This document shows positions 17,595-55,835 of a stretch of 64,000 nucleotides of DNA, one piece after another. Origin of the DNA: Jiangella anatolica (lineage in GTDB: Bacteria > Actinomycetota > Actinomycetes > Jiangellales > Jiangellaceae). The position numbers and the translations under genes are program-made. Under the pieces are notes generated by a model. It was given only the letters and a program-made list of their open reading frames with translations. It ran no database searches and had not been told where the DNA came from. Numbering within the stretch: the stretch's first letter is position 1; every line of letters starts with the position of its first letter. The stretch lies in NCBI RefSeq assembly GCF_003236295.1, contig NZ_POTW01000025.1, positions 1 through 64,000 on the forward strand. Reading direction: 5' to 3'.

Positions 17595-17711
17595 GACGCC
17601 CTCCCCAGGTCAGGCCTCGACGCTAGGGCGGCGGCCCGGCCTCGCGCGTCGGGCGAACCATGCATCTTCCGGCCGCCGGAGATGGGCAGGACTATGTAGG
17701 CGCGGTCGGCC

Positions 17712-17801
17712 CTTGGCACGCCGGAGCGCTCCACAAACGCGGCATTTCCGGCGCGGCAGGTGCCTTTCGGCGAGCCAAGCACGACGCTGGAGCGTGCCAA
17801 G
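17712..17801. repeat. Dispersed 90-bp repeat, copy A
   Basis: Starts CTTGGCACGC and ends GCGTGCCAAG, giving 9-10 bp terminal inverted repeats. Aligned without gaps to 55743-55832, about 65 of 90 positions agree, mostly in the first 68 bp: shared blocks include TCCACAA, GCATTTC, GGCGCG, CTTTC and GCGAGCCAAG. The 12 bases before the right end diverge completely while the end itself is kept. It lies between the end of the leftward LuxR gene and the start of the leftward monooxygenase gene. Confidence 0.75.
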
Positions 17802-17955
17802 GCGTCAGCGCCGAGCAGACGTCGGCCAGCGGACCATGACCGCAGCGGAGCCGGTCGCCGAAGAGCCGCGCAGGAAGGGTGAGAGGCCAGCGGACCTGGA
17901 GGAGCGCAGGGCTAGAAGCCGGGCCCATTTCCGGCCGGCCCTGACGCTGCTTTCA

Positions 17956-18038
17956 CGGGGGCGCGGGTGGTCGGGTCAAGCGGTCACCGTCGCGCGAAGC
18001 GCCAATAGGTCCGCTTGAGGCGGCCTCCCGCGCCCCCG
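17956..18038. repeat. Symmetric 83-bp quasi-palindrome (three nested stems)
   Basis: Outer arms CGGGGGCGCGGG (17956-17967) and CCCGCGCCCCCG (18027-18038) are perfectly complementary over 12 bp. Middle arms TCAAGCGG (17976-17983) and CCGCTTGA (18011-18018) match over 8 bp, and the apex is GCGC-GAA-GCGC (17992-18002). The unpaired stretches between stems are 8 bases on both sides at both levels. It lies 65 bp beyond the stop of the leftward LuxR gene, so a terminator or structured 3' region is one option; a degenerate long inverted repeat is another. Confidence 0.7.
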
Positions 18039-18103
18039 ACAATGGAGTGCAGCAGGGCAGGCCCACGCGGCCAACCCGGCCAACGTGAGCCCGGCCAACC
18101 GAA

Positions 18104-19744
18104 TCAGACCAACCCGTGCTCATAGGCATACGCCGTCGCCGCGGCGCGGGACGAGACGTCCAGCTTGGTGAAGATGTTCGCGACGTGGCGCGCCACCGTC
18201 TTCTCGCTGAGCACCAGGGCGGCGGCGATCGCCCGGTTGGTGTGGCCGGCGGCGACCAGCCGCAGGACCTCCAGCTCGCGCGCCGTCAGCACACCAGCGC
18301 CGCCACCACCGTCGCCGCCCGGCCCGAGGGCGCCGAGCCGGCGCAGCCGGTCCAGGCAGGGCGGCGCCGGGAGCGAACGGAACGTGCGGGCGGCCGCGTC
18401 GAACTCCATCCGGGCGGCGTCCTCGTCGCCCAGCTCCCGGCAGGCCAGCCCGACCAGCACCCGCGACCGGGCCGCCTCGTACGGGGACTCCGCCTGCTGC
18501 CAGCCGGTCCACGCCGCTCGAGCCGCACCCAGCGCCGCGGGCCCGGCGCCGTCGGCCAGCAGCACCGACGCCGTCGCGTATGCCGACATCGCCGAGAGCG
18601 CCGGCACTCGGATCTCGTCGGCGAGCTCGGCGAGCTCACCGCAGACCGTTCGGGCGCCGGCGACGTCGCCGGACGCCAGCAGCGCCTCCGTCAGCGCGGC
18701 CAGCAGCTCCGGGCGGGCCAGCGGCCGGGCCGCCTCGTCCACCGCCCGCCGCAGCCCGGCGATCGCCGCCGGCACCCGGCCCTGCGCCAGCCGGAGCAGG
18801 CCGAGCCCCGGCTGCGGGTCCTGACCGGTGGCGCCGGCCAGCCGGTACGCGTCCTCGGCGGCGGCGAGCTCGCCCCGCAGCCGGTGCAGCTCGGCCCGCT
18901 CGTAGTGGGCGGCGCCGGCGGCCGGCTGGCCGGGCGGATCGGACAGCCTGGCGCACGTGCGGCCGGCCTCGGCCAGCGCGTCCTGCCAGGCGCCCTGCAC
19001 GGCCATGACATGGACGCGGTGCACCTGGCACTCGCCGCGGAACGGCACCAGGTCCGGCTGCGCCTCGCACCAGCGGGTCAGCGCGTCGGTCCACTCGCGA
19101 GCCCGGCGCAGGTCGAACGTCGCCCGGCAGGCGTCGATGACGGTGCAGTAGACGATGCCGGTCAGCATCGGCCCGACCTCGCCGGCGGTGACGGCGACCA
19201 TCGCCTCGTCGAGCAGGGCGACGCCGTCGGCGACCTTCCCGAGGTGGACGAGGGTCCGGCCGCGGCCCATCCGGGCGAGGACGACCAGCTCGGGATCGTG
19301 GTGCCGCTGCCCGACGGCGACCGCCTCGGCGAACATCTCCGCGGCCACCGCCGGATCGTCCGCCGTCAGCTGCCGAGCCCGCGCCGTCAGCAGGTAGCCC
19401 GCCTCGGCACAGTCGCGGCCGCACTCGTCGACCAGGCGTTCGGCGCGGGCCAGCCAGCCGGCGGCGCGTGCCTGCTCGCCCGCGTTCGCCAGCACGACGG
19501 CCAGCCAGAACGCGCACCGCACGGCCGGCAGGGGCCGCCCGTCGGCCAGCAGCGCGTGGAAGGCCCGCTCTTGCACGGCGACACTCTCCGCGTCGTAACC
19601 GGCCAGGAACGCGGCCACGGCCAGCAGCACGAGGTCGTCCGGCGGCAGCGGCGACTCCGCGTCGGCGGCCACGAGCCGCGCGTACGCGTCGGACCAGGCC
19701 CGCGCCTCGAACGCGGCCCGAGCTCCGGACTCGATCGTCGCCAT
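18104..19744 (-). CDS. LuxR-family regulator with long helical-repeat-like N-terminal region
   Basis: Protein of 546 residues. The first 470 or so are almost entirely alanine-rich helices in a TPR-like rhythm (for example WLARAERLVDECGRDCAEAG, AAEDAYRLAGATGQ). The C-terminal 65 residues are a LuxR DNA-binding domain (LTARELEVLRLVAAGHTNRA and SEKTVARHVANIFTKL). It lacks the N-terminal ATPase of LAL/MalT regulators and has no Walker motif. ATG 19744 is favoured; an in-frame start 81 bp upstream would overlap the divergent GNAT gene. Targets are unknown. The divergent acetyltransferase is the closest candidate. Confidence 0.85.
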   Translation of the reverse strand: MATIESGARAAFEARAWSDAYARLVAADAESPLPPDDLVLLAVAAFLAGYDAESVAVQERAFHALLADGRPLPAVRCAFWLAVVLANAGEQARAAGWLARAERLVDECGRDCAEAGYLLTARARQLTADDPAVAAEMFAEAVAVGQRHHDPELVVLARMGRGRTLVHLGKVADGVALLDEAMVAVTAGEVGPMLTGIVYCTVIDACRATFDLRRAREWTDALTRWCEAQPDLVPFRGECQVHRVHVMAVQGAWQDALAEAGRTCARLSDPPGQPAAGAAHYERAELHRLRGELAAAEDAYRLAGATGQDPQPGLGLLRLAQGRVPAAIAGLRRAVDEAARPLARPELLAALTEALLASGDVAGARTVCGELAELADEIRVPALSAMSAYATASVLLADGAGPAALGAARAAWTGWQQAESPYEAARSRVLVGLACRELGDEDAARMEFDAAARTFRSLPAPPCLDRLRRLGALGPGGDGGGGAGVLTARELEVLRLVAAGHTNRAIAAALVLSEKTVARHVANIFTKLDVSSRAAATAYAYEHGLV

Positions 19745-55689: not shown

Positions 55690-55742
55690 GAATTGAGACT
55701 AAGTGCGCGGCCGGCCCCGGCGGAAGGCCCCCGGGCCGAGGG

Positions 55743-55832
55743 GTTGGCACGCTGAAGCGTTCCACAATCGGTGCATTTCGGGCGCGCGTGGTCACTTTCA
55801 GCGAGCCAAGGGGTCGCCGCCGGCGTGCCAAG
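55743..55832. repeat. Dispersed 90-bp repeat, copy B
   Basis: Begins TTGGCACGC (55744-55752) and ends GCGTGCCAAG (55823-55832); exactly the same length as copy A at 17712 and alignable without gaps. It ends 3 bp before the stop codon of the ABC ATPase gene 55836-56636. As with copy A, it lies between the end of one leftward gene and the start of the next. Both copies are followed by GTCAG two or three bases on. Confidence 0.75.
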
Positions 55833-55835
55833 CGG

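Follow-up and report, generated by a model that had tools for sequence, protein, structure and literature searches.

Two segments of the window, by which we mean the whole stretch of 64,000 nucleotides of Jiangella anatolica DNA analysed here, belong to a dispersed family of intergenic repeats built on a core of constant length, and elsewhere in the same genome copies of this repeat bracket a gene. The product of that gene combines an AbiEi-type DNA-binding first part with a putative DUF559-like nuclease motif, and genes of this kind, each accompanied by a repeat of its own, recur across actinobacteria. We lean towards the view that the window segment is a solo, non-autonomous copy of a short mobile element whose full unit is the AbiEi-DUF559 gene bracketed by 68-bp repeats. 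In our reading the element and its gene form a REP/RAYT-like pair in which the protein is not one known to be a transposase, and the recurrence of the pairing across actinobacteria suggests a type of selfish repeat system that has not been described.

Two copies of one repeat family in the window

The initial annotation, made from the window alone, had matched 17712-17801 with 55743-55832, and both its coordinates and its estimate of the agreement were correct, as the two segments align without a gap and are identical at 65/90 positions. When copy 1 was slid along the window in a gapless scan, the background was 26.5 matching positions on average (s.d. 4.3), and the runner-up after copy 2 reached 47/90 on the minus strand and 45/90 on the plus strand. 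Within the window, TTGGCACGC, GCGTGCCAA and GCGAGCCAA are each confined to these two segments, which are genuine copies of one repeat family. Each 90-bp segment is better read as a 68-bp core followed by one 22-bp tail unit, as listed here.

17712..17779, plus strand: core of copy 1, 68 bp (core-model match 6.7e-15)
17712-17721 and 17770-17779: end arms of copy 1, with one mismatch (A opposite A)
17780..17801, plus strand: tail unit of copy 1, 22 bp, its last bases (17792-17801) being GCGTGCCAAG
55743..55810, plus strand: core of copy 2, 68 bp (core-model match 5.9e-12)
55743-55752 and 55801-55810: end arms of copy 2
55811..55832, plus strand: tail unit of copy 2, 22 bp, its last bases (55823-55832) being GCGTGCCAAG
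55727..55835: empty-site interval, in the place of which one base stands in three related genomes (G004, G007 and G009)

Copy 2 begins with GTTGGCACGC and not with CTTGGCACGC. A stretch of 12 bases described as wholly different between them contains one equal base, and the left end does have the two alternative pairing partners proposed for it. Adjoining copy 1 (17823-18102) is another dispersed repeat, about 280 bp long and unrelated to the first, which has matches of about 75-84% identity at many places in genus relatives (among them G004 and G010) and at a few places in its own genome.

Copy number and spread among genomes

The genome to which the window belongs (G000) is a draft of 7,005,973 bases in 256 contigs, and the window lies on contig C174. 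A lack of further copies here or in relatives, which the initial annotation would have taken as refuting its reading, is clearly not what was found; a core model, trained on 51 cores from genomes of the same family and applied with a cut-off of E <= 0.01 to the best 150 first-look candidates of each genome, detected 59 copies in G000 and matches in 17/22 genomes of the family. By this count G002 carries 22 copies, G016 21, G001 and G017 16 each, G010 and G019 13 each, and the other genomes 6 or fewer. With copy 1 as the blastn query, matches were obtained in 7/40 genomes, its own among these seven, and in none of the 18 genomes from other families; the 90-bp segment had no match in the plasmid and phage collections at E <= 1e-5. 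Many copies of G000 are no more than a few hundred bases from the end of a contig (C38, C56, C59, C64, C78, C90, C189, C244 and C253), so the assembly is probably interrupted by arrays of the element and the true copy number may exceed the count.

Structure and age of the repeat

The 51 cores align in 68 gap-free columns, so that the core has a fixed length of 68 bp, and it runs from CTTGGCACGC to GCGTGCCAAG (CTTG...CAAG). Mean column identity is 0.96 at the ends and 0.79 in the interior, where the blocks TCCACAAA, GCATTTC, GGCGCG and GGT are conserved and one trinucleotide is variable. The core is followed on its 3' side by a tail of 0 to 6 units of about 22 bp, and by eye the tail unit resembles the 3' arm of the core, of which it appears to be a degenerate duplicate. 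Among 49 copies in the fetched loci of G000, counting of the motif across 130 bases gave no tail unit in 12 copies, one in 30, two in 4, three in 1 and six in 2. Some sites hold two or three copies in the same orientation, 130 to 380 bp apart. Identity between copies at different loci is 93% at best, with a median of 75%, implying that the copies are old and that there was no recent burst. Several cores at three loci of G002 (L045, L050 and L054) share longer flanks, of about 25 bases before the core and 50 or more after it, an observation that could reflect either a larger unit or a lineage-specific amplification.

The inverted ends are complementary in 94.3% of the end-stem cells of the 51 cores. 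RNAalifold confined the pairing of the core to its two ends (8 pairs; folding -5.97 and covariation 0.11 kcal/mol), and because the covariation of the end stem within this alignment is weak our conclusions do not rest on it. The initial annotation had offered either a functional dispersed unit, MITE- or REP-like, or a structured RNA. The former is borne out by the abundance of the copies in the genome, their constant core, their intergenic position and their conserved ends. As for the latter, a scan of the window at Rfam gathering scores returned no match and the interior of the core does not fold, and we rejected the structured RNA family. The integron attC site and the CIRCE operator were also dropped as candidates, the ends of both being different in sequence from those of the repeat.

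Position of the copies, filled and empty sites

Of the 63 copies in loci fetched from G000, G001 and G010, 61 are clear of any gene predicted with our own simple codon-based finder. The neighbouring genes are tandem at 21, convergent at 6 and divergent at 1 of the 28 regions of G000 for which both neighbours are known; for comparison, the 15 intergenic regions of at least 100 bp in the window comprise 7 tandem, 1 convergent and 7 divergent ones. A preference for gene 3' ends would suit repeats that act as RNA hairpins, e.g. as bidirectional terminators at gene ends, and that were spread by gene conversion with no relation to the AbiEi-DUF559 gene. The presence of other strong palindromes in the copy 1 intergenic region of other species would also fit. 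However, we consider this explanation highly improbable, since the interior of the repeat is conserved in sequence and not in pairing, no recurrent U-tract was seen by eye, and the gene-specific bracketing described below would be left unexplained.

At the copy 2 locus 11 regions were fetched, of which 8 were aligned and three (G003, G005 and G006) were scanned with the core matrix only. The element is present at the corresponding place in G001 and G011, and what looks like a truncated remnant of it persists in G002. The empty site of G004, G007 and G009 was read by eye from the aligned rows, the MAFFT alignment of this locus being poor; at this one clean site (109 bp vs 1 base) no target-site duplication was seen by eye. 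The interval that is missing from these three genomes terminates beside the stop codon of an ABC-type ATP-binding gene on the minus strand. No match was found in G003, G005 or G006 with the ungapped core-matrix scan, which also misses the copy of G001, where there is one extra base and which the core model does detect.

At the copy 1 locus the element is present in 0/9 orthologous regions, the region of G011 being cut by a contig end. Orthologues of this region (window 17600-18104; L182, L184, L185, L186 and L187) contain other strong palindromes, such as TGATCATCAA...TTGATGATCA, as if repeat families replaced one another at this intergenic region across Jiangella species.

An AbiEi-DUF559 gene bracketed by the repeat

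The initial annotation had described the repeat as unexplained by any gene, which is accurate within the window but not for the rest of G000, where the element brackets a gene. In four genomes of two genera a single gene lies between two copies that are about 1.1-1.3 kb apart. In G000, G002 and G010 the bracketed gene is beside gatC, at one Jiangella locus, and in G016, from another genus, it occupies a different locus with other neighbours. The bracketing copies are direct repeats and the gene is antiparallel to both of them in all four cases (4/4). A comparison of the gatC locus with G004, G007 and G009 places the right boundary of the unit at the end of the element. One gene is enclosed, and no AbiEii toxin gene was found between the repeats or among the neighbours read at L111, L140, L188 and L189.

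The AbiEi-type nature of the first part of the protein is indicated by the match to the PADLOC AbiEi models (2e-14), by the detection of Pfam AbiEi_4 in 12/18 relatives and by a Foldseek search with the predicted fold, for which the nearest solved structures are the AbiEi antitoxins 6y8q (6y8q_A, 8e-5) and Rv2827c (1zel). The C-terminal part contains the motif D...E.DG..KY, with D224, E235, D237, G238, K241 and Y242 invariant in 18 sequences, and resembles nucleases of the DUF559 type (Vsr-type, PD-(D/E)XK). This assignment is weak; Pfam DUF559 was matched in 2/18 relatives, 3hrl was reached at E 0.12, and this part of the structure model has a pLDDT below 50.

A close form of the gene, with at least 57% identity to that of G010, is present as a single copy in each of nine family genomes, G000 included. 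The copies that flank it in G000 score 56.7 and 64.4, lower than most solo copies, so there is no obvious recent master copy. Across the 22 genomes the relation between presence of the gene and copy number is weak (p = 0.03): G001 has 16 copies and no close gene, and G012, G015 and G020 have the gene with 0-1 copies of the R1-type repeat. The two other AbiEi-DUF559 genes of G000 have no bracketing repeats.

Many relatives of the gene are accompanied by repeats of their own

In G012, G015, G017, G019 and G020 the repeats that bracket close relatives of the gene (57-61% identity) are similar in size but have different end sequences, those of G020, for example, being CTTGGTGCGCTG...CAGCGCACCAAG. 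When the two flanks of each gene were aligned to one another with gaps allowed, a score of at least 60, a cut-off picked after the data had been seen, was reached at 18/30 loci from the family search, at 11/19 testable loci of a further 20 fetched in the family and at 30/39 testable loci of the 40 fetched outside it, which were, with a few omitted, the strongest-scoring among the profile matches listed and not a random draw; the figure for mismatched cross-locus pairs was 3/586. Two loci, L339 and L355, were dropped on account of short downstream flanks, and two genes entered the test two times each (as L233/L342 and as L237/L343), with negative results throughout.

Because gapped alignments could run into neighbouring genes, the test was redone with gaps almost forbidden. 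At a cut-off of 50, also picked after the data had been seen, 31/39 loci outside the family and 12/19 further family loci were positive vs 0/600 cross-locus pairs. The corresponding values were 35/39 and 12/19 vs 4/600 at a cut-off of 40, and 26/39 and 11/19 vs 0/600 at 60. Among 265 control genes, drawn from Jiangella and G033 loci and not from every genome tested, two exceeded 50; as both are themselves AbiEi-DUF559 genes, the count for other control genes is 0/263, and it is 0/40 for those with comparable intergenic space. Scores below 40 were obtained at 4/39 loci outside the family and at 7/19 and 11/29 inside it, the two other genes of G000 included. We consider the link between the AbiEi-DUF559 gene and its repeat to be well supported.

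This recurrence bears on a conventional explanation, in which the repeats are an ordinary MITE, mobilised by a classical transposase whose gene lies elsewhere, and the AbiEi-DUF559 gene is a passenger or defence cargo trapped between two copies. Inverted ends, constant size and intergenic copies are all properties of such an element, yet the bracketing of relatives of the gene recurs in many genera with unrelated repeat sequences, which is not the behaviour of a chance passenger. A RAYT-type transposase (PF01797) was found in 0/12 Jiangella genomes, the same search giving control matches in 5/14 named genomes. We therefore regard the ordinary MITE as quite improbable.

Dispersal and inversion of other repeat types

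Repeats of the other types are dispersed as well. That of G020 was found at 4 places in this genome, 10 in G019 and 1 each in G015 and G017, and was absent from the remaining 18 genomes of the family. The bracketing repeat of G033, a complete genome from another family, occurs there at 21 full-length places, 2 adjoining the gene and 19 further ones; it was also found at 11 places of at least 50 bases in G053, at a few partial ones in G079 and at none in five other genomes searched. All the solo places fetched from G033 are intergenic (16/16) and 15/16 border at least one gene 3' end, 8/16 being convergent and 1 divergent.

A further type is defined by the ends TGAYCAYGT...ACRTGRTCA, present on both sides of the gene in 14/86 loci, with TGAYCAYGT 209-334 bp upstream and the reverse complement of this motif downstream (window density 0.0035 per flank). 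These units measure 1201-1342 bp and their ends match over about 60 bp. In seven species one conserved gene pair encloses an AbiEi-DUF559 unit of this type, about 1.2 kb long, and the orientation of the unit is reversed in 2/7 of them, namely in G001 and G003 relative to G002, G005, G007, G011 and G016 (loci L224 and L227 vs L225, L347, L352, L357 and L358). A discrete unit that moves or recombines would be expected to show such matched ends and inversion.

It could instead be that nothing moves and that the repeats are operator sites, the bracketing copies regulating the gene and the dispersed ones forming a regulon. The first part of the protein resembles AbiEi antitoxins, which bind inverted repeats in their own promoters; for the AbiEi of S. 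agalactiae and Rv2827c the binding of inverted repeats is described in PMC7319586. Nevertheless, there is a copy on the downstream side of the gene as well, solo copies are mostly at gene 3' ends and rarely in divergent regions (1/28 in G000, 1/16 in G033), presence at one place varies among species, and units with matched ends flip. For these reasons we find the operator explanation unlikely.

Proposed mechanism and significance

Since the pattern is REP/RAYT-like, the protein is a different one and the genus has no RAYT, we suggest that the AbiEi-DUF559 protein acts on the repeat by recognising its ends and processing them. We infer that it binds these ends, cuts the DNA and moves the repeat. 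Binding is plausible by analogy, because the AbiEi protein of S. agalactiae and Rv2827c bind inverted repeats (PMC7319586). The AbiEi part would recognise the inverted ends, and the nuclease part would nick or cut at them, either on the duplex or on the hairpin of a single-stranded palindrome. Repair or strand transfer might then place copies of the repeat, either alone or together with the gene, at further intergenic sites. Solo copies, like both of those in the window, would be left behind when the bracketing repeats recombine or the gene is lost. In its broadest form, which we put forward tentatively as a possibility somewhat short of even, the proposal is that AbiEi-DUF559 proteins represent a new class of DNA-mobilising enzyme, each moving its own palindrome-ended repeat, independently of RAYT, across actinobacteria.

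If this were true, a second, unrelated protein would be paired with its own palindromes, and the REP-like lifestyle would have arisen more than once. A role would be available for a common unexplained gene, whose profile is matched in 111/196 genomes of the class, and the dispersed palindromes of many actinobacterial genomes would be footprints of AbiEi-DUF559 proteins, an origin of intergenic repeats that could be tested directly. The naturally varied pairs of protein and repeat are also material for recognition studies. Among the titles and abstract openings matched in the open-licence literature, none described an AbiEi-DUF559 gene paired with a palindromic repeat.

Comparison with known systems

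With the AbiE type IV toxin-antitoxin systems the unit described here shares an N-terminal DNA-binding part, with a predicted AbiEi fold, and known AbiEi proteins bind inverted repeats (PMC7319586). It differs from them in the DUF559-like C-terminal part apparently fused to this domain, in the lack of an AbiEii gene between the repeats of the four units read, and in having repeats that are on both sides of the gene and dispersed. MITEs and insertion sequences likewise have inverted ends and a constant length, and the TGAYCAYGT subset forms a unit of 1.2-1.3 kb with matching ends of about 60 bp; on the other hand, no classical transposase was seen in the units read, and no target-site duplication was seen by eye at the one empty site inspected.

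The pattern resembles that of the REP/REPIN and RAYT systems, REPtrons and TIRtrons, whose gene has copies of its own repeat, or long inverted repeats, on either side (PMC3733652, PMC3116915). REP elements go together with RAYT transposases; a REP palindrome has 20-40 bp and a GTAG or CGTC tag at one end, and for some palindromic families, the CGTC REPs among them, no mobiliser is known (PMC3733652). The core described here is longer, at 68 bp, has a conserved interior and CTTG...CAAG ends in place of the GTAG/CGTC tag, and the associated gene is AbiEi-DUF559-like, whereas RAYT is a tyrosine transposase of the Y1/HUH type. What the two have in common are short, palindromic, extragenic repeats in dozens per genome, with solo copies outnumbering the gene, and a gene of low copy number (one or few) that has its own repeat on its flanks, different genes having different repeats.
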